Part shown: piece by piece, positions 22,773 to 40,370 of the stretch
Layout of the letters: each line of letters starts with the position of its first letter
How positions within the stretch are numbered: the stretch's first letter is position 1
Assembly: GCA_003252135.1 (NCBI GenBank)
Contig: QKDK01000071.1
Location: 1-40,370, forward strand
DNA: 40,370 bases
Direction of reading: 5' to 3'
Source of the DNA: Clostridia bacterium
GTDB taxonomy: Bacteria > Bacillota > Clostridia > Lachnospirales > Lachnospiraceae
Made by a program: the position numbers and the translations under genes
The notes under the pieces: model-generated
What the model was told of the DNA's origin: nothing
Database searches by the model: none
Seen by the model: the letters and a program-made list of their open reading frames with translations, nothing else

Positions 22773-23810
22773 ATGAATAGTAGGGAACGTTTTTTTGCAA
22801 CGGTGAACAGGCAGCCCATTGACCGTCCGGCCGCCTGGCTTGGCATGCCGGATATCAAGGCACAGCCGGCACTTTTTGACCACTATGGTGTTACGAACAT
22901 GCATGAGTTAAAACTGGCAGTCGGGGATGATTTTTACGCTGTTGAGGTTCCCTATCATTCACCGGATGCCACAGCGATCTACGCTGCTTTTAACTGGTAT
23001 GGTGATTTTGTGGTCGATGCAGAAGAACGTACACTTACGGCAGACGGTTGCTTCAAGGAAGCGGAAGAGATCGAGGATCTTGCTTTCTTTGAGTGGCCGG
23101 ACCCTGCACGCTACATTGATGTGGAAGAATGTAAAAGACGGGTGCTGGAAGCACCGGAAGATAAGGTGAAGCTTGGAATCATGTGGTCCGCACACTTTCA
23201 GGATGCCTGTGCTTCTTTTGGTATGGAGACGGCCATGATGAATATGATCGCAAATCCGGAAATCTACGAAGCGGTGAATGATAAAATCGTAGACTTTTAC
23301 CTGAAGGCAAATGAAATCTTTTATGAAGCGACAAAAGGAAGACTGGATGCCGTTCTGATCGGCAATGACATGGGAAGTCAGAGAGGCTTGATGCTGTCTC
23401 CTGCCATGGTTCGTGAATTCATTATGCCGGGATGCAAAAAATTAGTGGAGCAGGCGCACAGCTATGGGCTGAAGGTAATCTACCATTCCTGTGGCTCCAT
23501 CGTGGATGTTATACCGGACCTGATCGAAGCGGGCGTTGATATCATTCATCCGATCCAGGCACTGGCAGCAGGAATGGAACCAAAGACTTTGCATGAAAGA
23601 TTCGGAGAACAGGTTTCTTTCTGCGGCGGAGTGGATACACAGGAACTTTTAGTGCATGGAAGCGAAGAGGAAGTGAAGGAAAAGGTGAAGGAACTACGCA
23701 GTATCTTCCCGACTGGCCTGATTATATCACCGAGTCATGAAGCACTGATGGAGGATGTTCCGCCGGCGAATGTGAAGGCTTTGTTTGATGAGGCGCAGAA
23801 GGTGCAGTAG
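22773..23810 (+). CDS. UroD-superfamily protein, probably a corrinoid-type methyltransferase
   Basis: A 345-residue TIM-barrel protein of the uroporphyrinogen decarboxylase superfamily. It lacks the N-terminal arginine motif of true UroD (RPAAWLGMPDI stands in its place) but has H238-S-C240 (VIYHSCGSI) and C284 (SFCGGVDT), matching the His-X-Cys...Cys zinc site of MtaA/CmuA-type methyltransferases (family knowledge). Haem synthesis is therefore unlikely. It starts 12 nt after the second GH42 gene with a perfect AAGGAGG site, so it is co-transcribed with glycosidases. A role in removing methyl groups from O-methylated sugars is possible but is inference: no corrinoid protein is in the window. 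Confidence 0.8.
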   Translation: MNSRERFFATVNRQPIDRPAAWLGMPDIKAQPALFDHYGVTNMHELKLAVGDDFYAVEVPYHSPDATAIYAAFNWYGDFVVDAEERTLTADGCFKEAEEIEDLAFFEWPDPARYIDVEECKRRVLEAPEDKVKLGIMWSAHFQDACASFGMETAMMNMIANPEIYEAVNDKIVDFYLKANEIFYEATKGRLDAVLIGNDMGSQRGLMLSPAMVREFIMPGCKKLVEQAHSYGLKVIYHSCGSIVDVIPDLIEAGVDIIHPIQALAAGMEPKTLHERFGEQVSFCGGVDTQELLVHGSEEEVKEKVKELRSIFPTGLIISPSHEALMEDVPPANVKALFDEAQKVQ

Positions 23811-24240
23811 GAGGCGGTTGTTGAAGGTTCGCTTTTACGCAGGGGACGTGCGGTCGTATGAAAGAAGAAACGTACTTCGATTTCAATGCATAAGATATTC
23901 TAATTCTTGCAGGATTTATTTAGAACATATCCAAAAGCAGATAACTCGCTGCGCTCAGACAGATCTGCTTTTGGATATTGCATAAATCCTTCAAGAAAGA
24001 ATATCTAACGCATTTACATAGGCGCACTTATCTTTCTTTCATACGACTGTACTGTAACTGCGGTATCAGGAATTGAAAACCGGAGATGAATAGATTAAAA
24101 AAGAAGGGTAAAACAAGGATAAAACAAAACTTTTCTATCACTGGTCACGGATATTGGCTCGTAGTGAAGCTGTGACGCATTGATTTTTAGCAAAATTGCA
24201 GCATTGATGAGTTTATTCAATTTGCAGATTGGAGCAGAGC
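23811..24240. other. 430-bp non-coding gap holding a long palindromic element
   Basis: No credible gene is present. The centre is occupied by the palindromic element annotated separately (23853-24047). The last part, about 24050-24230, shows no clear terminator or gene; the dehydrogenase ribosome site begins at 24231. Confidence 0.7.
23853..24047. repeat. About 195-bp imperfect palindromic element (MITE- or REP-like)
   Basis: The outer arms are perfect over 14 bp (23853-23866 with 24034-24047, GTCGTATGAAAGAA). The inner arms are perfect over 16 bp (23927-23942 with 23963-23978, ATATCCAAAAGCAGAT) around a 20-nt loop. Between them the arms remain similar, sharing AGATATTCT and AGGATTTAT blocks, so almost the whole unit folds as one hairpin. 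A short CGCAG/CTGCG match may extend the ends to 23838 and 24062. No coding capacity or obvious target-site duplication was seen. It could be a non-autonomous mobile element or a very large intercistronic hairpin. Confidence 0.75.
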
Positions 24241-25284
24241 ATGGAAGGCAGGATGAAGGTTGCGGTCATGACGGGACCGATGAAGATGGAATGGATAGAA
24301 AAAGACATTCCGCAGATTACGGAGAAGGAAGTTCTGATTAGGCTGGAGTACGTAGGGGTATGTGGTTCGGATCTTCATTTTTACAAAGAAGGGCGTCTGG
24401 CAAACTGGGTGCCGGACGGACCATTGGTCCTTGGACATGAACCGAGCGGCGTTATTGTTGAAGCCGGAAGCATGGTCACTGACCTTAAAGTAGGCGACCG
24501 TGTGGCAATTGAACCGGGGGTTCCCTGCGGTGAATGCGAGGAATGCAGAAAAGGCTTGTACAACCTTTGCAAAAGTGTAAAGTTCATGGCGATTCCAAAG
24601 GAAAAGGATGGAGTCTTCTCAGAATACTGCGCTCACGATGCCAGCATGTGCTTTAAGCTTCCGGAGAATGTATCGACGCTTGAAGGTGCTCTGATGGAGC
24701 CGCTGGCTGTCGGTATGCATGCCTGCGAGCTGTCAGGTGCGAAGCTTGGGGAAAAGGCTGTGGTTTTAGGATGCGGATGCATCGGTCTTGTAACCATTAT
24801 GTCGCTTCGGGCTCGCGGTGTCAGTGAAATCTATGCAGTGGATGTGCTGGATAAGCGGCTTCAAAAGGCAAAAGAAGTCGGAGCGACCAGAGTATTCAAC
24901 GGAAAGACAGAGGATATCGAAGCATTTGTAAAGACCTTACCCGGCGAAGGGGTTGATCAGGTCTATGAATGTGCCGGGAACCGGCACACGACCCTGCAGA
25001 CCTGCCGACTGATCAAGCGAGGCGGCAAAGTAACACTTGTCGGTGTATCGCCGGAACCTGTCCTTGAACTTGACATTGCGACCCTAAATGCCATGGAAGG
25101 CACGATCTACAGTGTTTACCGCTACCGTAATCTGTATCCGTCAGCAATTTTGGCGGTCAACAGCAAAAGGATACCGCTGAAATCCATCGTGTCTCACACG
25201 TATGATTTTTCAGAGGTCATTGAAGCAGTGGATTATAATGTGAATCATAAGGATGAAGTCATAAAGGCTGTGATCAGGTTCTAG
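24241..25284 (+). CDS. Zinc-dependent medium-chain alcohol/polyol dehydrogenase
   Basis: A 347-residue sorbitol/threonine-dehydrogenase-like MDR enzyme. Catalytic-zinc residues are C41 (GVCGSDLHF), H66/E67 (LGHEPSG) and E153; structural-zinc cysteines are C96, C99, C102 and C110 (PCGECEECRKGLYNLC). The Rossmann motif is GCGCIG (177-182), with D201 at the end of the next strand favouring NAD. It probably oxidises a secondary alcohol of a polyol, sugar or sugar acid. The frame extends to a TTG at 24229, but the ATG at 24241 has GGAG 6 nt upstream; ATG 24253 is a possible alternative. It follows the palindromic element, so it may not be co-transcribed with the GH42/UroD genes. Tandem 9-bp repeats follow its stop codon. 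Confidence 0.9.
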   Translation: MEGRMKVAVMTGPMKMEWIEKDIPQITEKEVLIRLEYVGVCGSDLHFYKEGRLANWVPDGPLVLGHEPSGVIVEAGSMVTDLKVGDRVAIEPGVPCGECEECRKGLYNLCKSVKFMAIPKEKDGVFSEYCAHDASMCFKLPENVSTLEGALMEPLAVGMHACELSGAKLGEKAVVLGCGCIGLVTIMSLRARGVSEIYAVDVLDKRLQKAKEVGATRVFNGKTEDIEAFVKTLPGEGVDQVYECAGNRHTTLQTCRLIKRGGKVTLVGVSPEPVLELDIATLNAMEGTIYSVYRYRNLYPSAILAVNSKRIPLKSIVSHTYDFSEVIEAVDYNVNHKDEVIKAVIRF

Positions 25285-29923: not shown

Positions 29924-31954
29924 TTAATCCGGCAGATTCACGCTCTCGGGGGCTGCAGGGATCAGTAACAGTTCTCCGTCCTGTGAGACGCTCCACGCGT
30001 CATTTGTACAGGTGACCTGAAAAATCAACTGATGGTAAGCCCATTCATTGTATTCACTTCTGTTAAAGGATAACTCTACCACATAAGTTTCCTCTGTGCT
30101 CAAAAAGGCATAGACGGCAGGTGTAGTTGTAACAAAATCAAGGTAGAGAGCAAGCTCATCATCAGGAAGGGTTTCTGCAGATGAATAAGCAATTCTGTAC
30201 ACATCTTCATAGTTCAGAAGATGCTCCTCTGCATACGCTGCGATGTATTCTGCATACATCTGCTCGTATTCCTCTCTGGTGATCTGTTTTCTGGTGCCCC
30301 GCAGGACGAACTGCCACTTCATATCAGCACCGGAGGGTACATAGTAGGTGTAATCAGGAGAATCAAAAGCATTCGTTGTGTAGTTAGATATAAGCAGGTC
30401 TGCAGATTGGCGCAGCTTATCCATATCTGTGGATGAATCAATCAGACCTGCGCTCATTGCCGCATGCAGCAGGTATTCTTCCGGACTTATATTTATACCT
30501 GACAGGTCATATCTGTCTGACAGAGATGTCACGCTGCTTGCTCTGATTTCAGCATCAAGTTTTAAAAATGCCAGATAATCCTCCGTAGTTTCCTGAATGT
30601 TATTATGAATGAGCAGATCACTGATGACAGCAGCAAGATTTAGTTTTGAATCCGGTTCCTCAGATGCAGAACCGGGGGTGTCTTGTGCAGTCTGCGTACT
30701 CTCATCAAGACGAATGACTAGTGCCGGACGCACTGCATAATTGGGCGAGCTGACAGCTGCTTCGTCAATTTTGCCATAAGGGAAAATGGTAAGACCGGAT
30801 GCTTCATATGTATCGTTGGGACCAGAAGTCTGATAAGTTGAACTAAGTGAGCGCAGCCACCAGTAACTATTCCTGATGCAGCTGCCATTGATAAAAGATG
30901 TCCTTGCTCCCCTTACTAAAGCATACTCAGTATTGTATGCAACTCTGCCGCTTCCGTCACCCTGCGCTGTTTGGCTGTAACAAAAACCATACGCCGTATT
31001 CCCGGCATCATCATAGGATAAAAGGAAAATCTTATCCACAGAAGGCGACTCACCTGTAATACCGTAATGACCTTCGGTGTTATTCTCCAGTTCTTTCTCC
31101 AGAATGCATTCTTCTTCCGCAGAAGTAAATGCGGCTGACAAAAAGCCTGCACCTGCAGCAGAATAATCAATGCCGGACATATTCTGGGTCTCGTCATATC
31201 CGTTCAGCCAGGAGCGTAAAGAGCAGTCCTTCCAGCTGACATCATCCTGCATAACATGGTAGGCCTGAGCATCAAGTGACAACTCTGCGAGCAGGAACAG
31301 TTCAGAACCGTTTTGCGACAGAACACGCCACTGAACAGGTTCAAATATAAAGTAAGCATAGTCATTCACCGTCCAGTCAAAGAACATGCTGCTGTTCTGT
31401 GCGAAGCTTTCATTACCTTCGTACTCAGCATTCATCACATAAGGAAGATCGTTCTTTGAAAGACGTTTATATCTGTTTTTGTTAATCTGTGCTGTGCCGT
31501 TGGAATCATAGTCCGCATTAATGATTTCGGCAGTCAAAGCTTCACCTGTCAATAATGTCTGTGGGTAACTTCCAAACCAAACATACTTACAAGTATTATC
31601 TGTCCAGGTCACACCTTCTGGCAGATCTATGATGGATGTCTGAACCGGCATAAAGTCCTGTGCTGTCAAAGACGCAGGTGTGGGAGATGCTGCAGGAGCC
31701 TCGTTAAGCTGAATGGCAGGAGTACTTGTTAAAACAGGACTTATATAGGGTTCCTGTTCTGTTGATGCCGCTTCGTTTTCAGGTGAAGAGCTCACATCAG
31801 ATGCAGCATCAGGTGTTAGTTCCGTGTCTGCTGTGTTCTGCGGCATGGATTCAATATTGTTCTGACTTAATACAAACGGAACACATCCTGAAACTACCAG
31901 ACTGATTCCCATTACCAATATAATACAGATGATCTTTTGATGATAAAATCTCAT
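29924..31954 (-). CDS. DUF6273-domain lipoprotein of unknown function
   Basis: A 676-residue lipoprotein with lipobox VVSGC (C24), a Glu/Pro/Ser/Thr-rich linker to about residue 100, and a DUF6273 domain (about 115-410). The domain has VWFGSYPQT, FEPVQWRVLS, DCSLRSWLN, IFLLSYDDAG, YWWLRS and a terminal AVRPALVIRL, the standard layout of this family. A helical segment (about 430-520) and a beta-rich region ending in NLPD follow. DUF6273 domains are common in Lachnospiraceae surface proteins; no enzymatic role is known to me. The ATG at 31954 has GGAGG 5 nt upstream; the frame from 31975 would place that site inside the gene. Confidence 0.8.
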   Translation of the reverse strand: MRFYHQKIICIILVMGISLVVSGCVPFVLSQNNIESMPQNTADTELTPDAASDVSSSPENEAASTEQEPYISPVLTSTPAIQLNEAPAASPTPASLTAQDFMPVQTSIIDLPEGVTWTDNTCKYVWFGSYPQTLLTGEALTAEIINADYDSNGTAQINKNRYKRLSKNDLPYVMNAEYEGNESFAQNSSMFFDWTVNDYAYFIFEPVQWRVLSQNGSELFLLAELSLDAQAYHVMQDDVSWKDCSLRSWLNGYDETQNMSGIDYSAAGAGFLSAAFTSAEEECILEKELENNTEGHYGITGESPSVDKIFLLSYDDAGNTAYGFCYSQTAQGDGSGRVAYNTEYALVRGARTSFINGSCIRNSYWWLRSLSSTYQTSGPNDTYEASGLTIFPYGKIDEAAVSSPNYAVRPALVIRLDESTQTAQDTPGSASEEPDSKLNLAAVISDLLIHNNIQETTEDYLAFLKLDAEIRASSVTSLSDRYDLSGINISPEEYLLHAAMSAGLIDSSTDMDKLRQSADLLISNYTTNAFDSPDYTYYVPSGADMKWQFVLRGTRKQITREEYEQMYAEYIAAYAEEHLLNYEDVYRIAYSSAETLPDDELALYLDFVTTTPAVYAFLSTEETYVVELSFNRSEYNEWAYHQLIFQVTCTNDAWSVSQDGELLLIPAAPESVNLPD

Positions 31955-32007
31955 TGCAGCCTCCGTTTTCCACACGATTCCAACAGAACCATATATTGTA
32001 TAAATTT

Positions 32008-32158: not shown

Positions 32159-32959
32159 TCAGCGTTTTGGCACATTCAGAATTTCTCTTGCCTCTGCGGG
32201 TGTTGCCGTATCAAAGTCCATGCTTCTGATCAGGTTCGTCAGTTTTTCGACCAGTTCATAATTCACGACGGCATTTTGTGTTTCAGAAAGATAATAACTG
32301 TCTTCAAAACCGATGCGTACTATGCCTGCACCCATGGCAATGGCAGCAGCTAAAAAGTTCCAGTTATCACGGCCGTAATGGGTAACGCCCCATCTGGCAT
32401 CCTTTGGAACAAAGGAACGAAATACGGCCAGGCTTTCCATGGTCGGCTGCATGCAGCCCTTATGACCAAATACAAGGTTATAAAAAATAGGTCTTCTGTA
32501 GGGCATTTCTGCTGCCACAGATTCGATATTCAGAATCATGGAGGTATCAAAGACCTCTACCTCCGGGATGATGCCGCGCTTATAGACTTCTCTGGAGCAG
32601 TAACGGATGTCATCAAAGGAATTCAGGTAGATATCTTCCCAGAGATTGGTGCTTCCGCCGTTCAAGGAAGCAGTTTCTGTCCTTTTATATTGCAGCGGAT
32701 TGCATCTTTCTTTTATACTCATATTCGAAATGCCGCCTGTAGATGCCTGTACGACAACATCTGTTTTAATCAGAATTTTGTCAAAGCATTCTGACATATA
32801 AGAGATGTCTTGTGTCAGAAAACCATCCGGCTTTCTGCAGTGCAGGTGGCACATGGAAGCACCTGCCTTTACACACTGTTCAACGTCGGCAGCAAGTGCA
32901 TCGGCATCAACTGGTGTCCCTGCTTTTACAGGAGCTAATGAAATAATAACTTTTCTCAT
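32159..32959 (-). CDS. BKACE family beta-keto acid cleavage enzyme (DUF849)
   Basis: A 266-residue TIM-barrel protein of the Kce/BKACE family, which converts a beta-keto acid plus acetyl-CoA into acetoacetate plus a new acyl-CoA. Zinc ligands are visible as H38 and H40 (CHLHCRKPDG) and E219; catalytic R215 and D220 occur in IVRIGFEDSYY with the same R-x3-E-D spacing as Kce. Other signatures are QASTGG, SLNGGSTN and FGHKGCM. The substrate is unknown because pocket residues vary between subfamilies. The ATG at 32959 with AGAGGA upstream gives the normal family start; the long open frame to 33100 runs into the kinase gene. It is the last gene of a minus-strand operon with a four-carbon acid-sugar kinase. 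Confidence 0.87.
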   Translation of the reverse strand: MRKVIISLAPVKAGTPVDADALAADVEQCVKAGASMCHLHCRKPDGFLTQDISYMSECFDKILIKTDVVVQASTGGISNMSIKERCNPLQYKRTETASLNGGSTNLWEDIYLNSFDDIRYCSREVYKRGIIPEVEVFDTSMILNIESVAAEMPYRRPIFYNLVFGHKGCMQPTMESLAVFRSFVPKDARWGVTHYGRDNWNFLAAAIAMGAGIVRIGFEDSYYLSETQNAVVNYELVEKLTNLIRSMDFDTATPAEAREILNVPKR

Positions 32960-33053
32960 AACGTGTCCTCTTTCTGCTACTGGAAGCTGCCCTGTAATAA
33001 ATACAGTGTTTAACAATGTTTTTTTATACGAAAAACCGGTATATCCGTCATTT

Positions 33054-34475
33054 TTATGGCCCCATGAGATCATCCACGATCTGCAGGAGAGTTGTTGCAT
33101 CCCCTACATTTCCGGGAAATATCACATAAGGAAGGCCAGGGAACTTACTTTCCGGCCCGGTCCTCCACACAGGAATTCCCTTGGCGATCTGCCCAAGAAC
33201 TTCTGCTCTTTTTACACCAAGTCCTTTGGTTCCGACATCGCTTGAAGTAATGCCCCCTTTTGCTATGATGAACCCGGGACAAACCGTCAGGTCACTAACT
33301 ATACTTGTCAGTGCGTTTGAAATATCAACAGAGGCAGAAAGAAGAGCATCCTTGTCCAGGCCGTCAGGAGTCATCAGCTTTCTGGAGGTATAGATGATCA
33401 CGGTATAGCCGTTCGGAATTTCTTTTTCGGCAATCTGCCGTATTCTGTCTGCTTCTTTCTTTAATCCGCCTGGTCTGGTACAGGAACTGACATCAAACTC
33501 GAGGAACAGAAGGTTATTCTTTGATTTCATCAGTTCATTGAGCTGCTGTGTTGTTTTTTTTACATGGGAGCCGACAATAACAAGACCGCTGTTCATCATG
33601 CCATCGGGAAATAGTGCCTTTTTATTAAGCAGCGGCTGATCTGATATATTACCAATGACTTTTGGCAGTGCGGCTGCAGAACGCGCAATAAAATTATGTC
33701 CCTGTTTCATGGCACGGATCCAGGCGGTGCAAAAGACCTTCAGATCAGTATAGGAAACCGCATCCACAATGATCTTTGCAAAGTTGTCAGCCTGCATGAG
33801 CTGGTTTGTGATTCTGTCAGCATTACAGGCACGAAGGTCGGCGATCGATATGCAGATACAGTCTTTGGCAGGATAGCTGCCTTTTGATTTTTCCTCCACA
33901 TAAGCAGGAAGGAAAGAGTTTTCATAACCAAAAGTCTTATCCTTTGCAAATTCTGTTTCTGCTGCAAGGGTCAGCTGATCTCCTTCCTTTACATAGTGGA
34001 TGGAATCGATGGTATAGCGTCCGCCTTCAGGAAAAAATGGACAGATGATTTCCCCGTGAAAATGTGTACCTGTTTCATTTTCCAGTGTTTCGCAAAGCGT
34101 TTTTGTTTCAAGCGGGTAATGACCGCGAAGTGTTGAGTCAGATCTGGAGATCAGAACGTATTCTTTGCCAAGATCTGCTGAGACATGACCGATACGGCGT
34201 GCTATCTCCTGATGTACACAAAAGGTCTGTTCAGAGGTCAGGCCTCTGGAATTTGTTAATATAAAAATAAGCGGCGAGACATTTGTAAAACCTTCCCGTA
34301 TGGATGATTCTTCCCAGTCTGTATATACGCTGACGTCATGGACTGTCTGAACACCAGTTGGATCGTCATCAAGTGCTATGATCTTTCTTTGAAACCCCAT
34401 AAGTTCATCCTGCAGAAGTCTGTCAGCCAGAGCAGTGTTCTCCGGTGGCTGCTGTACCAGAAATTCTAAATTCAT
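33054..34475 (-). CDS. Four-carbon acid-sugar kinase family protein (DUF1537)
   Basis: A 473-residue kinase of the DUF1537/OtnK-DtnK family, which phosphorylates four-carbon sugar acids such as threonate or 3-oxo-tetronate with ATP (family knowledge). The N-terminal sugar-binding domain opens with IALDDDPTGVQTVHDV, followed by LISRSDSTLRGHYPLE. The C-terminal nucleotide domain has AKGGITSSDVGTKGLG and the ending VIFPGNVGD. Both halves are complete. The start is set by GGAGGT 4 nt before the ATG at 34475. Usual partners such as the dehydrogenase LtnD and the aldolase-like OtnC are absent; a BKACE follows instead, 94 nt downstream. Confidence 0.88.
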   Translation of the reverse strand: MNLEFLVQQPPENTALADRLLQDELMGFQRKIIALDDDPTGVQTVHDVSVYTDWEESSIREGFTNVSPLIFILTNSRGLTSEQTFCVHQEIARRIGHVSADLGKEYVLISRSDSTLRGHYPLETKTLCETLENETGTHFHGEIICPFFPEGGRYTIDSIHYVKEGDQLTLAAETEFAKDKTFGYENSFLPAYVEEKSKGSYPAKDCICISIADLRACNADRITNQLMQADNFAKIIVDAVSYTDLKVFCTAWIRAMKQGHNFIARSAAALPKVIGNISDQPLLNKKALFPDGMMNSGLVIVGSHVKKTTQQLNELMKSKNNLLFLEFDVSSCTRPGGLKKEADRIRQIAEKEIPNGYTVIIYTSRKLMTPDGLDKDALLSASVDISNALTSIVSDLTVCPGFIIAKGGITSSDVGTKGLGVKRAEVLGQIAKGIPVWRTGPESKFPGLPYVIFPGNVGDATTLLQIVDDLMGP

Positions 34476-34553
34476 AACTACCTCCATCGTGCCGTAATGC
34501 GCAGGTACTCTGTGCATCCGTTAAAATTGGTGACAGGAATGGAATTAACCACC

Positions 34554-35273
34554 CTATAATACCTGTTTCCAGAAGACATAATGTTCCGCCAGCGTCTCCT
34601 CGACATCTTCCAGCTTTTTACTCTTTATTATGTTGACAAGTCGGGTATGCAGCTCGATGAAATCACTGATATTGCCGGATTCAAGCACCATATCGATGGC
34701 ATCTGCCCTCGATGCGATAGTGATTCGGTCTACATAGCTGTACATGCAGAGCAGAAGTTCATTGTTCATGGCTCTGACAATATCCATGTGAAATTCCACA
34801 TCGGCACGCAAAATACGCTCTGTCTTCGGTTCTTTGGCAGTGATCTCATCGGTCAGCTTCAGCAGGCTTTTTTCCAGCTTTACAAATTCGTCAGGGGTAA
34901 ATTCCTGCATGACATGATGCAGAATGCCGGTATCCAGAACCTTGCGCATCTGCAGGAGTTCCGCGGAGGAGCTTTTCTGAAGCAGGATGCCGTATAGCAT
35001 GGGGTCGAGCATTTTCTGATTGAAGGTGTCATTAATGTAGGTGCCATCAGCGCGTTTGATGTATACAACACCGTAGGCCTCCAGGATTTTTACTGCCTCT
35101 CTGACCGAGTTGCGCCCGACCTGAAAGGAGTTGCTAAGTTCAAGCTCTGTCGGCAGTCTGCTGCCCGGAAGCAGTTCACCGGCGATAATAGCTTCCGTGA
35201 TCTGATCTATAATTCGGCTGACGATGGTCCCGTTCTGTAAAGACCGGTTCATGATAGGTGTTTTTGATGGCAT
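34554..35273 (-). CDS. FadR-subfamily GntR transcriptional regulator
   Basis: A 239-residue regulator. A winged HTH at about 14-80 (LLPGSRLPTELELSNSFQVGRNSVREAVKILEAYGVVYIKR) precedes an FCD ligand-binding domain of about 95-235, whose likely metal-binding residues include D and H positions in ADVEFHMDIV and ELHTRLV. It probably represses this operon until a sugar acid or related metabolite binds, as in UxuR/LldR/GntR relatives (inference). The ATG at 35273 has AAAGGAG 6 nt upstream. It starts 26 nt after the GH127 gene and is followed 78 nt later by the kinase. No operator palindrome was found with confidence. Confidence 0.9.
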   Translation of the reverse strand: MPSKTPIMNRSLQNGTIVSRIIDQITEAIIAGELLPGSRLPTELELSNSFQVGRNSVREAVKILEAYGVVYIKRADGTYINDTFNQKMLDPMLYGILLQKSSSAELLQMRKVLDTGILHHVMQEFTPDEFVKLEKSLLKLTDEITAKEPKTERILRADVEFHMDIVRAMNNELLLCMYSYVDRITIASRADAIDMVLESGNISDFIELHTRLVNIIKSKKLEDVEETLAEHYVFWKQVL

Positions 35274-35299
35274 GAAGATCTCCTTTCTGATGCGGCGGG

Positions 35300-37273
35300 T
35301 CAACGGTATGCGACAGGCAGCCAGATCCTCATTTCACCGTATCCGCGGTTGTCCCATGCAAAGTAAGGGATCAGGCGGATCTGAACAGCGGTAAGCTCTG
35401 TGAACTGCAATGTCTGATATAAAGCGTTTCTGTCATAATTTTTTCTTGAAATGGCAAAAGCATTTCCTTTCAGAACCGGAATCGTACGTTCAAGGATGAA
35501 CAGAGAATCCATTTCAAAAGAGGCATGCAGGTCAAGCAAAATGTCATCCAGGGAAGCGATCTCGCAGTCATCTGTTTCCATGCAGTAGACCAGCGGGCCG
35601 CGTTCTACGGCAGCCTGGACAGAGTTTTCTTCCGAAAGACTGTGTGCAATGGTATATCGAACCGGCATGTCCAGTGTCAGTACAAGGGTATCCGCTGCGG
35701 TCAGATTCTCCCACAGGTAATAGCTTTCTGCCATTTCTGCAGTGATGATCACATTCTTTCTGCCGTCTGTGATGGAACCGGAAACTGCCCATTTTGGAAT
35801 ACGGAGATTCAGGTCAAAGGCTGTGGGAGCAGTGTTGTTGTCCATGTCGCCAGCATCTTCTATTGTAAATGTAATGGTGCCGTCATATGGGTAGGATGTG
35901 CTTTGCACCAGTGTAAATGGTTTACCGCCTTCTGGCTGTATGACAGAACGGTTCGCACCGTACATGCCGGTCCATACGGTATTACCGGAAGTAAGATAAG
36001 CATATTCGGAAGCTTCGGCAAGTGTTCTGGCAAGGTTTGGCGGGCAGCAGTAACTTATGATGTATTCTTCTCTTGTCAGTGACCAGATCAGTTCATAAGG
36101 AAGCTCCTTTGCACGGCGCAGCATATTTTCATAGAAATATTTATTGCCGTCAAGGCTGATGGCTGCAGGCAGGAGATTCAGCATGGTACGTTCGATCAGG
36201 TCAAAATATTCGGCCTTTGGCTCGATCTGGAACATACGGTATGCCCACAGCACACTGCCGACAGAAGCACAGGTCTCGTTATAAGCGGTGATGTTCGGCA
36301 GCTGGTATTCGTATCCATATGCCTGATGGACCAGCTGATGATGAAAGAAGTTGCCGTAAGGGGATGCCCCGTTATAGAGTGCACCGCAGCCGCCGGTCAG
36401 GTATATTTTCTGATCGACAAGGTTGCGCCATACACTGTGGAGCACCTCCAGATACTCGCTGTCCCCTTCTTCCAGATACAGATCTGCCACACCGGCATAA
36501 AGATAATTGGCCCGTACTGCATGTCCAATGATCCTTCGGTGTTTTTTCAGAGGAAGTCTGTCCTGGTTGTCATCAAGACCGTTTGCGACAGAATCTCTCG
36601 CCTCGATGGAAAGTCTAGCCAGTGTCAGGTATTTTTCGTCACCGGTGGTCCTGTACAGCTCTATAAGTCCCATATAATGTGACGGACAGACAGCTGTTTT
36701 GACCTCACCTTTTTTCATATTGTCCTCATACATCTGTTCCAGATATCCGGCGGCTTTTTTAGCAACGGTCAGGAACTTATCCTTCCCTGTCAGGCGAAAA
36801 TACAGACTGGCAGCGGTGAACAGATGACCGAAATTATAGACTTCAAAATCATTGATGTCACCTAGCCGCAAAATGCCATTGTTCTGGCGTTCTCCGAGGA
36901 TCTGCTTGGTCGATATATAACCGTCACAAAGCTGTGCTCTGGATATCAGATCCACATAGGAATCAAGCTGTTCAAACATCTTCTTATCATTTGTTTTAGC
37001 TGCATAATACATGGCAGCTTCCATCCATTTGTAGAAGTCACCGTCGCCAAAGTTCGTACCGCCGAACTCACCTTGTGCTTCACCGGCACAGATGCGGAAG
37101 TTTTCAACAACATGGCTGATTTCAACCGATTCGAACTTGGCCTGCAGGTGCGGGATGGTCCTGCTGCCGTTCACATCACAGATTTCCTTCCAGAAACCAT
37201 CTGTCCACTGTGTTGCGGAAAAAGGAAGGGGCGAAACCTTTTTGAATTTAGATTTTGCAGTATCAGTCAGCAT
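35300..37273 (-). CDS. GH127-family (DUF1680) beta-L-arabinofuranosidase-like enzyme
   Basis: A 657-residue (alpha/alpha)6-barrel protein with a C-terminal beta-sandwich. The zinc and nucleophile residues of GH127 are present: E333 and C335 in YNETCASVG, and C409/C410 in SYCCPPN. The residue 16 before E333, where HypBA1 has its acid/base Glu322, is Q317 (VHQAYGYEYQLPN) by spacing, although E322 is nearby. It may therefore have shifted chemistry or specificity. There is no signal peptide. The ribosome site AAGGAG lies within the end of the racemase gene, whose TAA directly abuts this ATG, so the two are translationally linked. It presumably releases L-arabinose or a related sugar inside the cell. 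Confidence 0.87.
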   Translation of the reverse strand: MLTDTAKSKFKKVSPLPFSATQWTDGFWKEICDVNGSRTIPHLQAKFESVEISHVVENFRICAGEAQGEFGGTNFGDGDFYKWMEAAMYYAAKTNDKKMFEQLDSYVDLISRAQLCDGYISTKQILGERQNNGILRLGDINDFEVYNFGHLFTAASLYFRLTGKDKFLTVAKKAAGYLEQMYEDNMKKGEVKTAVCPSHYMGLIELYRTTGDEKYLTLARLSIEARDSVANGLDDNQDRLPLKKHRRIIGHAVRANYLYAGVADLYLEEGDSEYLEVLHSVWRNLVDQKIYLTGGCGALYNGASPYGNFFHHQLVHQAYGYEYQLPNITAYNETCASVGSVLWAYRMFQIEPKAEYFDLIERTMLNLLPAAISLDGNKYFYENMLRRAKELPYELIWSLTREEYIISYCCPPNLARTLAEASEYAYLTSGNTVWTGMYGANRSVIQPEGGKPFTLVQSTSYPYDGTITFTIEDAGDMDNNTAPTAFDLNLRIPKWAVSGSITDGRKNVIITAEMAESYYLWENLTAADTLVLTLDMPVRYTIAHSLSEENSVQAAVERGPLVYCMETDDCEIASLDDILLDLHASFEMDSLFILERTIPVLKGNAFAISRKNYDRNALYQTLQFTELTAVQIRLIPYFAWDNRGYGEMRIWLPVAYR

Positions 37274-37942
37274 TTACAGTACTCCTTTTCTTAATAATGC
37301 CTGCTTCAGGGCAGCAGCTCCAAAGCGGGGACTGGACAATGTAGGTATATTCACTGCCTGTTCGATCACTGTTTCAGCATAAGCCATGGAGCCCTGGCAG
37401 AGCAGTATAATATCTGCCTTTCCGATGAATTCTTTTGCCTTGCTGACCAAAAGGGATTTGAACACTTCCTGGTCGGCACCAAATGCATCAACAAGACCGT
37501 CAAGCAATGTGATTTCTCTGCCCATCTCTCTTGCGACTCTGCGAAGAGTGTTCTTTGTCGGTTCCAGCGTGGTCGAAAGAGTGGCGAGAGCTGCAATTGT
37601 TTTTCCTTTTCGGACTGCTTCACGGCACATCTCCTCATCCACACGGACAACAGGTACACCCATGTAATCCGCAGCATTCTGTATGGCATCCGCTGTTTCT
37701 CCGACGGAAGAGCAAAGATTCAGGATGGCATCGGCATCTGCCGCAATTGCCTGCATATACAAAGCATAAAGCCTGGCAGCTGCCTTTCCGGTTACATATC
37801 CATGCTCTCTTGCCTCACCAAGAATTGTAGCATCTGCATAATTCATTAAAACTGCGTCTGCACCGATTTCTTTTTTTACCTCTCGTTCAACAAATTCAAT
37901 TAATTCAGGTGTTGTTCCTGTATAGACCATTCCGATTTTCAT
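37274..37942 (-). CDS. Asp/Glu/hydantoin racemase-superfamily protein
   Basis: A 222-residue protein with the two-Cys active site of the Asp/Glu racemase fold: C77 in LNLCSSVGETADA and C182 in LLCQGSMAYAE, plus the N-terminal strand MKIGMVYTGTTPEL. The family includes racemases, maleate isomerase and arylmalonate decarboxylases, so the substrate cannot be named. In this operon an acidic sugar-derived compound is likely (inference). Its ribosome site is poor: AAAGGA lies 12 nt from ATG, while a small upstream ORF stops 3 nt before the start, suggesting coupled translation. The TAA abuts the GH127 start. Confidence 0.78.
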   Translation of the reverse strand: MKIGMVYTGTTPELIEFVEREVKKEIGADAVLMNYADATILGEAREHGYVTGKAAARLYALYMQAIAADADAILNLCSSVGETADAIQNAADYMGVPVVRVDEEMCREAVRKGKTIAALATLSTTLEPTKNTLRRVAREMGREITLLDGLVDAFGADQEVFKSLLVSKAKEFIGKADIILLCQGSMAYAETVIEQAVNIPTLSSPRFGAAALKQALLRKGVL

Positions 37943-37945
37943 AAT

Positions 37946-38128
37946 TTACATGATTCCTTTCACATACTTACGTATTTCAATCATTCTTGGATTTTTTTCT
38001 GATGCGCTGGCTGATATGCTGTCATATGCGCTGGCTGATGCAGCTGCTTGTCTGACATGCAAAAATTTAACAATCCAATGTATAACGTAGGATGTTAAGC
38101 CGCATAACAGATCCTTTAGCAGTATCAT
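37946..38128 (-). CDS. Possible small leader ORF upstream of the racemase
   Basis: A 60-codon frame with a hydrophobic amphipathic N-terminus (MILLKDLLCGLTSYVIHWIV), a Ser/Ala repeat (SASAYDSISASAS, encoded by a 14-bp DNA repeat) and a basic tail (IEIRKYVKGIM). AAAGG lies 8 nt before ATG. Its stop is 3 nt before the racemase ATG, which lacks a well-placed ribosome site of its own. No homologue is known to me; it may be a coupled leader or simply fortuitous. Confidence 0.3.
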   Translation of the reverse strand: MILLKDLLCGLTSYVIHWIVKFLHVRQAAASASAYDSISASASEKNPRMIEIRKYVKGIM

Positions 38129-38329
38129 CTCATAAACCTTTTCGTTTGTAAAGAGTTTTGTATAAATTTCATCTAAAATGTTTAACTATAAATTAAATTA
38201 TTTATTTATATTTACAATTTTCATTTAGTAAGCTATGATACTTTTGAATATTATCTCCGCTTTGATCAATGGCAAAATGTGTTGACCGGCTATGGAAAAT
38301 ATACAAAATGAAAAAAACAGAAGATATAT

Positions 38330-38357
38330 TTGCATACCGGAATTTACTGTGTAAAAT
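38330..38357 (+). promoter_or_regulatory. Candidate promoter for the second GH78 gene
   Basis: TTGCAT (38330-38335), a 16-bp spacer and TAAAAT (38352-38357), with the start codon at 38409. The surrounding DNA is AT-rich, which raises the chance of a false match. Confidence 0.4.
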
Positions 38358-38408
38358 AATATGGGCAGGTATCTTGCTGCAAAAGATAAAAAGAAATGGA
38401 GGCTGACT

Positions 38409-40370
38409 ATGATTACAATAGGAAGAATTTACACGAATTATTTGAAAAAGCCGATGGGCGTTATTGGGAAACCCCAGTTTTCATGGGTGATCGAAGGGAG
38501 CTCTGTTAATGTTATGCAAAAGAGCTACCAGCTGCAGGTCAGTCTGTGCGATGATTTTAGCACGCTTGTTTATGACAGCGGGATCGTGCTTTCTGAGGCA
38601 TCAGCGCAGGTCACAGCGGATACTTTGGTTCTTGAGACTGCGCACCGCTATTTTGTAAGAGTCATGGTAACCTCGATGGCAGGAGAAACAACAGAATGGG
38701 GAGTATCGGAATTTATCAGCGGTGTTTTGCAGGAAACAGAATGGAAAGCCAGGTTCATTACGGGGGAAACACCTGAAGAAGCTGATATGTCATCCGCAAA
38801 ATATCTGCGCAGGATTCTGCCGCTTCGGAAAAAGGTAAAAGAAGCCATTGCCTATACCACAGCTCTTGGCCTTTATGAATTTACGATCAACGGAACGAAA
38901 GCAGGGACAGATGAACTGGCACCCGGCTGGACTTCTTACCATAAGCATCTGCTTTATCAGACCAACGACATTACCAGTCTTCTTACCAGAGGGTACAATG
39001 TACTCGCGGCTGAAGTCGGTGCAGGCTGGTACAAGGGAAAGATGGGGTTTGTCGGCAATCGTAACAATTACGGAGACCGTACCGGTTTTCTGGCACAGCT
39101 TTATGTTACCTATGAAGATGACAGCCGCGATATTTTTATTACCGACGAGAGCTGGTTCTATGATAAGAGCCCGATCGTATTCTCGGAAATATATGACGGT
39201 GAGATTTATGATGCCGCACTGGAACAGGAAGACATTTTCAGCCCGGAATTTTACGATTATGACCTGGAGGAGGTCATGCTGCTGGATGTACCGTATACGG
39301 CCCTGACTCCGCAGGAAGGCAGCAGGGTGAGGAAGATCGACAGGATGCCGGCAAAAAGCATATTTACAACACCTCAGGGAGATACAGTGCTCGATTTTGG
39401 GCAGAATATGACAGGAACTGTGGAAATCACCTTTGAGAGCGTGCCGGGAAAAACACTGAACCTTCATTGCTTTGAAGTTCTGGACGCCAGAGGTAATGTA
39501 TATCTTGATAACCTTCGTTCTGCAAAGCAGCAGGTACTCTATCACTGCAGCAAGGATGGCAGAGTCACGTACAGTCCTAAATTTACCTTTTATGGTTTCC
39601 GTTATATAAAAGTTGACGAATTCCCGGACGGCGCTCCTAAAGCCGCTGATTTTACAGCATACACGCTGCATTCCGATATGGAGCAGACCGGTACCTTTGA
39701 ATGCTCCAATCCTGACTTAAACCAGCTCCAGCATAATATCCTCTGGGGCTTAAAAGGTAATTTTGTCGACATCCCTTCCGACTGTCCGCAGAGAAATGAA
39801 AGACTTGGCTGGACAGGTGATGCGCAGATTTTCTGCCGCACGGCGAGCTACCTGATGAACACCTATCAGTTCTTTGCAAAGTGGATGAAGGATGTGGCAG
39901 CGGATCAGGCAGCAGACGGCGGTGTAGCACATGTCGTTCCTGATATTGTGACCGGAAGCAGTGACAGTGACTGGCTGGTCGGACAGGGTACAATGTCAGC
40001 GGCAGCCTGGGCGGATGTGGCAGTCATAAATCCGTGGACGCTGTATCTTACCTTTGGAGACAAAAAAATCCTGGCAGATCAGTATGACAGCATGAAGGGC
40101 TGGATTGATTTTATGACCGCGCATGCAGTGGACGGTGTGTGGACTTATATGCTGCAGTTCGGTGACTGGGTAGCCCTGGATGCAGAAGAAGGAAGCTATT
40201 TTGGTGCCACACCGACGGATCTTACCTGTGCTGCTTATTATGCCTACTCGAGCGGTCTGTTTGCAAAGATCGCCAAAATTCTTGGAAAAGATGCAGATGC
40301 AGTCTCGTATCAGGCACTTCATGAAAGTGTCGTGGATGCATTTCACAGACATTACTTTACAATAGACGGC
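38409..40370 (+). CDS. GH78 alpha-L-rhamnosidase, 3' end cut by window
   Basis: This frame is open from the ATG at 38409 to the window edge (654 codons, no stop). The order of domains is GH78: N-terminal fibronectin-like region, beta-sandwich (TALGLYEFTINGTKAG, ELAPGWTSYHKHLLYQT), a second sandwich (VLDFGQNMTGTVEI, FTFYGFRYIKV), then the catalytic barrel with the canonical motif DCPQRNERLGWTGDAQ (D458, R462, E464, W468, D471). The last visible part includes GVWTYMLQFGDWVALD. It has no signal peptide. The ribosome site is GGAGG 6 nt before ATG. About 200-300 residues with the general-base region are missing. Unlike the GH78 at 11979, its catalytic motif is standard, so the two are not recent duplicates. 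Confidence 0.93.
   Translation, partial: MITIGRIYTNYLKKPMGVIGKPQFSWVIEGSSVNVMQKSYQLQVSLCDDFSTLVYDSGIVLSEASAQVTADTLVLETAHRYFVRVMVTSMAGETTEWGVSEFISGVLQETEWKARFITGETPEEADMSSAKYLRRILPLRKKVKEAIAYTTALGLYEFTINGTKAGTDELAPGWTSYHKHLLYQTNDITSLLTRGYNVLAAEVGAGWYKGKMGFVGNRNNYGDRTGFLAQLYVTYEDDSRDIFITDESWFYDKSPIVFSEIYDGEIYDAALEQEDIFSPEFYDYDLEEVMLLDVPYTALTPQEGSRVRKIDRMPAKSIFTTPQGDTVLDFGQNMTGTVEITFESVPGKTLNLHCFEVLDARGNVYLDNLRSAKQQVLYHCSKDGRVTYSPKFTFYGFRYIKVDEFPDGAPKAADFTAYTLHSDMEQTGTFECSNPDLNQLQHNILWGLKGNFVDIPSDCPQRNERLGWTGDAQIFCRTASYLMNTYQFFAKWMKDVAADQAADGGVAHVVPDIVTGSSDSDWLVGQGTMSAAAWADVAVINPWTLYLTFGDKKILADQYDSMKGWIDFMTAHAVDGVWTYMLQFGDWVALDAEEGSYFGATPTDLTCAAYYAYSSGLFAKIAKILGKDADAVSYQALHESVVDAFHRHYFTIDG

Follow-up and report, generated by a model that had tools for sequence, protein, structure and literature searches.

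A five-gene operon from a Lachnospiraceae bacterium as a candidate catabolic module for aceric acid

Which compound is degraded by an operon that brings together a family GH127 glycoside hydrolase, a racemase-fold protein (RAC), a DUF1537 acid-sugar kinase (KIN) and an enzyme with the fold of the β-keto acid cleavage enzymes (BKACE), all accompanied by a FadR-type regulator? The set occupies the minus strand, from 37942 to 32159, of the whole analysed stretch of 40,370 nucleotides (hereafter the window), originating from a genome that is 80% complete. A first-pass annotation had described the five genes as co-oriented; they indeed lie in one orientation with tight spacing and Pfam domain matches, are real, and form what looks like one operon. 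The features are as follows:

37274..37942, minus strand: RAC, Asp/Glu/hydantoin racemase-fold protein, 222 aa (PF01177)
35300..37273, minus strand: GH127 of the BT1003 (aceric acid hydrolase) type, 657 aa (NCBIfam AcerHdlse and PDB 5mqo matches, insertion)
34554..35273, minus strand: FadR/GntR-FCD transcriptional regulator (PF00392 and PF07729; orthologue equally placed in the related locus L002)
33054..34517, minus strand: KIN, DUF1537 acid-sugar kinase, 487 aa (PF07005 and PF17042)
32159..32959, minus strand: BKACE-fold metal enzyme, 266 aa from the ATG at 32959 (PF05853, catalytic residues, separate clade)
37943..38408, no strand: divergent promoter region (alignment with L002; promoter-like scan)
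38409..40370, plus strand: divergent GH78-type α-L-rhamnosidase, truncated by the contig end (PF17389, PF08531 and PF05592, searched from base 38412)

The reading frame of the regulator is open from a TTG at 35303, its first ATG being at 35273, and its GntR and FCD domains score 60.1 and 49.9 bits, respectively, in Pfam; it would likely be the sensor-repressor of the operon. The same divergent pair of operon and rhamnosidase is found in L002 (1224 bits), in which both a promoter-like TTTACA-17-GATGAT (38152-38124, minus strand) and, downstream of it, the 22-bp block AACATCCTACGTTATACATTGG are kept—the latter identical and, judging from the sequence, a candidate for the operator. The FadR-like operator TNGTNNNACNA was dropped, since its 7 sites in the window compare with 7.65 expected. 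A zinc alcohol dehydrogenase is encoded elsewhere in the window (24229-25284), on the opposite strand and 7 kb from the operon.

The GH127 enzyme hints at the substrate. The first-pass annotation was right in taking it for a GH127-like glycosidase, but missed that its type is that of aceric acid hydrolase. Aceric acid—3-C-carboxy-5-deoxy-L-xylose—is a rare plant-wall sugar of the pectin rhamnogalacturonan-II (RG-II), which also contains apiose. In addition to the domain PF07944 (302.5 bits in Pfam), the protein matches the NCBIfam model AcerHdlse (NF049879) with 721 bits; because this lies below the equivalog cut-off of 950, it is not classed as a member of that family and is regarded as BT1003-like only. 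There is a gap in the AcerHdlse scores, 5 of the 391 genomes of the class exceeding 700 bits and the next best reaching 530. The best structure match is PDB 5mqo (514 bits, the next one 315), which we take to be the structure of BT1003. A 14-residue insertion and the motif VHQ..G.EYQLPN, present in all seven high-scoring GH127 proteins aligned and in none of the three lower-scoring ones, have similar counterparts in 5mqo and are missing from 4qjy. Sections of two articles (PMC5698469, PMC10850190) name BT1003 as the aceric acid hydrolase acting in the degradation of RG-II. The GH127 subtype, the insertion and the catalytic Glu/Cys region are common to it and to the window enzyme, whereas BT1003, from RG-II degradation by Bacteroides, is a single enzyme and the window holds a putative catabolic operon. 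Aceric acid is moderately supported as the operon substrate.

The gene set, which the first-pass annotation had suggested looking for in other genomes, recurs in other loci at 41-88% identity, and therefore by more than chance. RAC, GH127, KIN and BKACE co-occur in three lineages, one of them with a different gene order: RAC-GH127-FadR-KIN-BKACE in L002, RAC-GH127-KIN-BKACE in L013-L015 (L012 stopping after KIN) and KIN-RAC-BKACE-GH127 in L063. In L012-L015, the set directly follows genes for an isomerase, a split transketolase and an FGGY kinase, probably an apiose operon, and the operon has rhamnosidase-like genes nearby in the window, L002, L013 and L063. Among the 391 genomes of the class, a strong apiosidase (PF13204, E 1e-80) was counted in 4 of the 5 with an aceric-type GH127 versus 21 of the 386 without it, and RAC of at least 230 bits in 3 of the 5 versus 1 of the 386 others, both thresholds (1e-80, 230 bits) being the analyst's choice; at the searches' own limits, the counts are 3/5 versus 4/386 for RAC and 2/5 versus 38/386 for BKACE, and all of them ignore relatedness, three of the five genomes belonging to one genus. 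The set in the window is probably an aceric acid breakdown module shared with several other bacteria of the same class.

The alternative that the GH127 enzyme acts on another furanoside, e.g. β-L-arabinofuranose, with the acid-sugar genes serving a different substrate and merely sharing the locus, draws on the AcerHdlse cut-off not being reached and on the fact that nearly all the characterised enzymes compared in a part of PMC10850190 are arabinofuranosidases; the BT1003-type insertion, the score gap and the four genes being together in three lineages despite one differing order make it rather improbable.

A point against the aceric acid module is the genome with the highest-scoring GH127 (G193), which has no RAC, kinase or BKACE match within 20 kb around the GH127 gene, and neither RAC at 1e-30 nor a DUF1537 kinase at the level of the genome. 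Further BKACE loci amount to 0 of 32 in its family, an empty answer that is uninformative, and to 1 of 13 in the family of G251, namely G251 itself. One control genome, presumably that of Bacteroides ihuae, passes the AcerHdlse cut-off, and B. ihuae is absent from the list of control genomes with BKACE or a DUF1537 kinase, so that its aceric acid route would differ. In the plasmid collection, RAC-like places occur in 44 records, kinase-like ones in 9 and BKACE-like ones in 631, the best places all being below 60% identity, and no BKACE match was present in the six plasmid regions inspected.

Concerning the kinase, both DUF1537 domains are recognised by Pfam—PF07005 (SBD_N) with 158.3 and PF17042 (NBD_C) with 124.2 bits—and the protein counts as a DUF1537 kinase; against the NCBIfam models of 3-oxo-tetronate kinase and D-threonate kinase it scores 38.9 and 48 bits, below the respective cut-offs of 350 and 450. 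The OiaK model is not among its NCBIfam matches and yields 18.5 bits for the relative L003. The window copies are the sole DUF1537 kinase and the sole BKACE found in the 80%-complete host genome. Rarity of the kinase–BKACE pairing had been named in the first-pass annotation as an argument against a joint pathway, and here the outcome is mixed: BKACE adjoins the kinase in 4 of its 15 relatives (L002, L013-L015), one contig ends just after the kinase (L012), and the other ten relatives adjoin a dehydrogenase instead, with no BKACE in the flanks examined. The pairing is seen only with the BT1003-type GH127, plus in L064, a short contig with no GH127 on it. The suggestion of an undescribed sugar-acid pathway holds up, the kinase–BKACE pairing recurring with the same GH127 and RAC.

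It appears that the operon may be a catabolic module for aceric acid, a reading given a probability of about 0.5. Judging from its type, GH127 would free aceric acid from imported oligosaccharides, and RAC would then shift the carbonyl from C1 to C2 via an enediol. The ketose formed, HOCH2-CO-C(OH)(COOH)-CH(OH)-CH3, would be a one-carbon homologue of 3-oxo-isoapionate and, because the carboxylate is on C3, already a 3-oxo acid; no LtnD/DenD-type dehydrogenase would therefore be needed, which would explain why the operon has none. The DUF1537 kinase would, in the manner of OtnK and OiaK, phosphorylate the primary hydroxyl adjoining the ketone, and the BKACE-fold zinc enzyme would act as a CoA-independent β-keto acid decarboxylase or lyase, filling the place of OtnC or of the class II aldolase in related modules. 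Decarboxylation would give a 5-deoxy-pentulose 1-phosphate, to be split by an aldolase to DHAP and acetaldehyde, the carbon balance being C6 to C3 + C2 + CO2. One candidate for this last step, L-rhamnulose-1-phosphate aldolase (RhaD), was set aside, having no match in the genome at its 80% completeness, a result that also counts against the scheme. This detailed scheme—RAC as isomerase, a 3-oxo acid, the DUF1537 kinase and a CoA-independent BKACE-fold enzyme, together with a kinase-free parallel route elsewhere—is offered tentatively, at odds well short of even.

As far as RAC is concerned, it matches PF01177 (Asp_Glu_race) with 45.8 bits (cut-off 31), and its AlphaFold model (pLDDT 88) resembles hydantoin, allantoin and Asp racemases, among them the hydantoin racemase 2eq5 (Foldseek E 4.4e-9). 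The cysteine pair C77/C182, previously described as looking intact, is indeed found complete in the window as well as in L002; only Cys77 is conserved, however, Cys182 being replaced by Ala in four of the six aligned sequences (L012-L015; the window among the six) and also in L100 and L101, which rules out a conserved catalytic Cys pair. RAC is proposed to be a carbonyl (aldose-ketose) isomerase. In favour of this was counted the annotation of Escherichia coli ygbJKLM: a putative L-threonate dehydrogenase, 3-oxo-tetronate kinase, 3-oxo-tetronate 4-phosphate decarboxylase and 2-oxo-tetronate isomerase. In L106, L107 and L123, where no OtnI-type isomerase was recognised, a RAC-type protein accompanies a dehydrogenase, a DUF1537 kinase and a class II aldolase; the RAC operon of L122 has a TRAP transporter, a kind commonly carrying organic acids. 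RAC and a xylose-isomerase-like protein occur together in L100, L101 and L122 (that of L100 scoring 20 bits only against NCBIfam IolO), so that RAC there may not be the isomerase, and the kinase-free variant in other genomes—RAC, xylose-isomerase-like protein, split transketolase and transaldolase—makes an isomerase role of RAC less certain.

The BKACE-fold protein matches PF05853 with 213.6 bits in Pfam. Its listed reading frame (from 33100) overlaps the kinase gene; the likely start, as predicted from the sequence, is the ATG at 32959 with GAGGA upstream, a choice reproducing the residue numbers H38, H40, R215, E219 and D220 given in the first-pass annotation for catalytic residues seen as intact. 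That view is confirmed, since H46, H48, S82, E143, R226, E230 and D231 (CcaKce numbering) are all present, and every one of the 34 rows in the alignment with 2y7d, the window included and two loci entered twice, has equivalents of the Zn ligands (H46, H48, E230). The GAE(V/T)T loop after strand 1, whose Glu14 has a role in canonical BKACE, is missing from the window, L002, L013, L063 and L064 (the same genes as L018 and L019, respectively), L020 and L021, and present in 25 of 25 sequences of L022-L046. The window enzyme thus shares with canonical BKACE the family match, the Zn ligands and the catalytic Glu and Arg, and differs in that its first loop is short and lacks Glu14, Asn232 is replaced by Ser, its gene neighbours are of the sugar-acid kind and its clade is split from the other sampled Clostridial BKACEs with support 1.0. 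Sister BKACEs adjoin a lyxose-isomerase-like cupin (L064, L065). A BKACE fold with other chemistry, flavophos BsfD, is described in part of a preprint (PMC12871164), and a cis-epoxysuccinate hydrolase is among the PDB matches. The enzyme is proposed to be a β-keto acid decarboxylase or lyase. The exchange of Tyr for Phe at the CcaKce Tyr145 position, an idea from a portion of the same preprint, was dropped as a non-canonical mark, Phe occurring in the window and also in 29 of 29 Clostridial homologues (L018-L046); the structure model (mean pLDDT 62.5) was set aside.

The production of acyl-CoA and acetoacetate from a sugar-derived acid and acetyl-CoA by a canonical BKACE, as suggested in the first-pass annotation, would agree with the PF05853 score and with the Zn ligands, E143, R226 and D231. 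It is nevertheless unlikely, given the separate clade without the Glu14 loop, the BKACE folds with other chemistry and, should the substrate derive from aceric acid, the quaternary carbon beside the carboxylate, because of which the standard Claisen step would be blocked. Moreover, no CoA enzyme is among the sister-clade neighbours identified (not all were), which include a sugar isomerase, ribulokinase, transketolase and carboxylate transporters.

Even with aceric acid as the substrate, BKACE might cut the bond linking the ketone to the quaternary carbon in a retro-Claisen reaction that uses water or CoA, the products being phosphoglycolate (or its CoA ester) and 2,3-dihydroxybutanoate, while RAC would epimerise the latter at the α-carbon. 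RAC does have a racemase fold, and the metal and base residues of BKACE are kept, which counts against a purely CoA-independent reading; cutting beside the ketone of β-keto acids is what BKACE does according to passages of PMC12871164 and PMC11961710. However, the second RAC cysteine is not conserved, and RAC-type proteins are seen in operons in which BKACE was not detected (L100, L101, L106, L107, L122 and L123), so that RAC is not tied to a BKACE product; this course of the reaction has but a small chance.

With regard to the known modules, the aceric acid operon proposed here resembles E. coli ygbJKLM in the DUF1537 kinase, the proposed 3-oxo acid intermediate and the isomerase-like and lyase-like partners, and differs from it by having no dehydrogenase, by RAC replacing the OtnI-type isomerase and the BKACE fold replacing OtnC, and by including a glycoside hydrolase. 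In agreement with the first-pass annotation, no LtnD/OtnC/DenD-type partner is encoded among the genes of 32159-37942, nor is any dehydrogenase or OtnI-type isomerase (OtnC looked for in the window only). The D-apiose catabolism via 3-oxo-isoapionate is alike in dealing with a branched RG-II sugar, the proposed intermediate being one CH2 apart. There, the DUF1537 kinase OiaK is followed by a RuBisCO-like decarboxylase or a transcarboxylase, whereas the window operon has no RuBisCO-like protein or oxidoisomerase and has the BKACE fold instead. For the D-apiose route, decarboxylation of the 4-phosphate is reported in a part of PMC6302742. An ordinary tetronate (threonate/erythronate) module, its kinase acting on 3-oxo-tetronate and the other genes being hitch-hikers, is highly improbable: although the nearest other kinases adjoin a hydroxyisobutyrate-type dehydrogenase in 10/10 and a class II aldolase in 8/10 loci, as in known modules, neither is present in the window operon or detected by phmmer in L002, L012-L015 and L063.

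Gut bacteria feed on RG-II, and the enzymes depolymerising it are described in the part of PMC12282258 referred to here; no bacterial breakdown route for aceric acid was found in the searchable literature. The scheme, if true, would be the first candidate pathway for aceric acid; two enzyme activities would be new, and so would two routes, the kinase-free one (RAC, xylose-isomerase-like protein, split transketolase, transaldolase) serving the same sugar in other Clostridia. The four-gene set makes the fate of aceric acid directly testable, and with the pathway a BKACE subclade would gain an activity, as would the proteins of racemase fold that accompany DUF1537 kinases in Deinococcus, Rhodococcus and Clostridia.

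The operon comprises five genes:

37942-37274, minus strand, racemase-fold protein (RAC; Asp/Glu/hydantoin type), first of the five
37273-35300, minus strand, GH127, directly abutting RAC
about 35273-34554, minus strand, FadR/GntR regulator
34517-33054, minus strand, DUF1537 acid-sugar kinase (KIN)
32959-32159, minus strand, BKACE-fold metal enzyme, 94 bases from KIN

A GH78-type rhamnosidase, truncated by the contig end, lies on the far side of a divergent region of 466 bases. The set appears to be an acid-sugar catabolic operon with, probably, a new substrate and new enzyme roles; the substrate would be aceric acid, which RAC would isomerise, KIN phosphorylate and the BKACE-fold enzyme decarboxylate or cleave; all these steps, that of the GH127 included, are proposed from family and context. 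In the literature searched, covering few subscription papers, no paper was found on aceric acid catabolism (an absence that is no proof of novelty), on DUF1537 together with BKACE, or on a four-carbon acid sugar kinase together with a racemase.

The window GH127 scores 721 bits against the NCBIfam model AcerHdlse and, because the curated cut-off of 950 is not reached, is designated BT1003-like rather than filed as a family member. Its nearest solved structure by sequence is 5mqo (514 bits, all others reaching at most 315), which we take to be BT1003. BT1003 reportedly hydrolyses aceric acid (3-C-carboxy-5-deoxy-L-xylose) in the depolymerisation of rhamnogalacturonan-II (RG-II), as an exception among arabinofuranosidases (PMC5698469, PMC10850190). 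Five of the 391 genomes of class Clostridia (G handles) possess a copy above 700 bits (G193 806, G322 793, G149 780, G251 770, G000 721), the next score being 530; two further copies in the window's genome score 468 and 453 bits. In the alignment, an insertion of about 14 residues is common to seven high-scoring sequences, as is the stretch VHQA(Y/F)G(Y/H)EYQLPN, which is replaced in three lower-scoring ones by GE(A/S)F..DYDLPND or a near variant. No signal peptide is evident on reading the N terminus, and the window GH127 is therefore probably cytoplasmic.

Aceric acid has an aldehyde at C1, a hydroxylated C2 and a carboxylate on the quaternary C3. A carbonyl shift from C1 to C2 would yield a 3-oxo acid at once, and the dehydrogenase of tetronate modules could therefore be absent; the place of RAC in acid-sugar operons suggests that it would be the carbonyl isomerase. 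The ygbJKLM genes of E. coli are annotated, as putative, dehydrogenase, kinase, decarboxylase and isomerase. A precedent for decarboxylating a phosphorylated 3-oxo acid is 3-oxo-isoapionate 4-phosphate (PMC6302742), on which RuBisCO-like proteins act.

The first-pass annotation had placed kinase and BKACE in one pathway, and their pairing holds for some of the 15 loci (L handles, from other genomes) obtained with the kinase query in one scan of genome contigs. L002, from Clostridia isolate SZUA-610, exhibits the gene order of the window and also keeps the divergent GH78; L013, L014 and L015 have RAC-GH127-KIN-BKACE, with FadR missing from the order, and L012 matches these as far as KIN, its contig ending 239 bases from that gene. 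The pairing does not extend to the remaining 10 loci, where no BKACE match was found and a hydroxyisobutyrate-type dehydrogenase (10/10) and mostly a class II aldolase (8/10) accompany the kinase, the former adjoining it. Around the kinase of L003-L010 and L016 lies a Clostridial module of SIS-type regulator, class II aldolase, hydroxyisobutyrate-type dehydrogenase, DUF1537 kinase and PanB-like protein, the last without a match in L005, which is cut upstream, while L004 stops before its possible position.

A BKACE match at 1e-30 occurs in 40 of the 391 genomes. That of G251 (57% identity) belongs to locus L063, ordered KIN-RAC-BKACE-GH127, its RAC being interrupted by an assembly gap; that of G277 (40%) lies in L064 with KIN, ribulokinase and a lyxose-isomerase-like cupin. 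The BKACEs linked to aceric-type GH127 group as a single clade (support 1.0); its neighbours are those of L064, L065 and L068, and the 25 other Clostridial sequences sampled fall elsewhere in the tree. In the kinase tree, a single clade is not clear, the L063 kinase being located outside with no clear support value in the rerooted tree.

Of the catalytic residues of BKACE, initially read as intact, the metal and base residues are kept, so that the window enzyme may use CoA chemistry, a point against the proposed route. An argument from the catalytic Tyr failed its control and was dropped. The sister-clade BKACEs of L064 and L065 adjoin a lyxose-isomerase-like cupin, the combination of isomerase and BKACE being seen again. 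At L065:3938-8095 and L068:4755-13650, the neighbours of sister BKACEs are carboxylate transporters of the tripartite/TRAP kind together with sugar enzymes (a cupin isomerase; two ADH-like genes and a split transketolase), possibly another sugar-acid use of the fold.

RAC-type proteins also occur with a hydroxyisobutyrate-type dehydrogenase, DUF1537 kinase and class II aldolase in L106:7263-11983 (Deinococcus), L107:4854-7859 (Rhodococcus; dehydrogenase annotated only further off) and L123:5538-9341 (a Clostridia genome), and with the aldolase and a more distant DUF1537 kinase in L125 and, by phmmer, L126. This position suggests a carbonyl isomerase, possibly, in L106, L107 and L123, a non-OtnI isomerase of acid-sugar modules. 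The alignments reveal a single conserved Cys in RAC, which is easier to reconcile with proton transfer by one base than with a two-base racemase. A point against the proposal is a kinase-free operon (L100:4411-11605, L101:9348-16522, L122:9707-17913) in which RAC is grouped with a xylose-isomerase-like protein, a transaldolase, a split transketolase and FadR; the corresponding genomes, G322, G149 and G383, yielded no DUF1537 kinase. Aceric-type GH127 is present in L100 and L101 and was not seen in 20 kb of L122, whose operon includes a TRAP transporter. If the xylose-isomerase-like protein is an isomerase, RAC has another role there; if it is a decarboxylase, RAC remains the isomerase. Also counting against the proposal, G193, with the best-scoring GH127, has no partner gene matched nearby.

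In L012-L015, the set comes straight after a sugar isomerase (in L013 sulfoquinovose-isomerase-like, 119 bits), split transketolase and FGGY kinase, presumably the D-apiose operon layout; the L013 FGGY protein also exceeds the cut-off of a glycerol-kinase subfamily. RG-II contains both apiose and aceric acid (PMC12168206). At thresholds chosen within this analysis, with tests that ignore relatedness (G149, G193 and G322 belong to one genus), the aceric-GH127 genomes are enriched in apiosidase (PF13204, E 1e-80 or better; 4/5 vs 21/386 others, Fisher p 6e-5), RAC of at least 230 bits (3/5 vs 1/386, p 4e-6) and BKACE of at least 200 bits (2/5 vs 1/386, p 4e-4); the fifth genome, G251, has a PF13204 match of 53 bits only. 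With the limit set by the searches themselves (1e-30), RAC is present in 3/5 vs 4/386 and BKACE in 2/5 vs 38/386.

Aligned with L002:4049-4476, the divergent promoter region (37943-38408) shows a conserved promoter-like site; a block of 22 identical bp is a candidate for the operator bound by the FadR-family regulator. Elsewhere, the 40-kb contig encodes GH29, GH78, a GH43/GH32-like protein, GH106, two GH42 and GH5, as well as an acetylesterase-like SASA protein, a zinc alcohol dehydrogenase, and a two-component system accompanied by ABC permeases and binding-protein-like genes. The two GH42 genes are followed by a URO-D-family protein (22773-23810), situated within a glycosidase cluster, and by the zinc alcohol dehydrogenase (24229-25284). 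The operon is followed directly, on its own strand, by a DUF6273 protein (29924-31975) whose N terminus resembles that of a lipoprotein.
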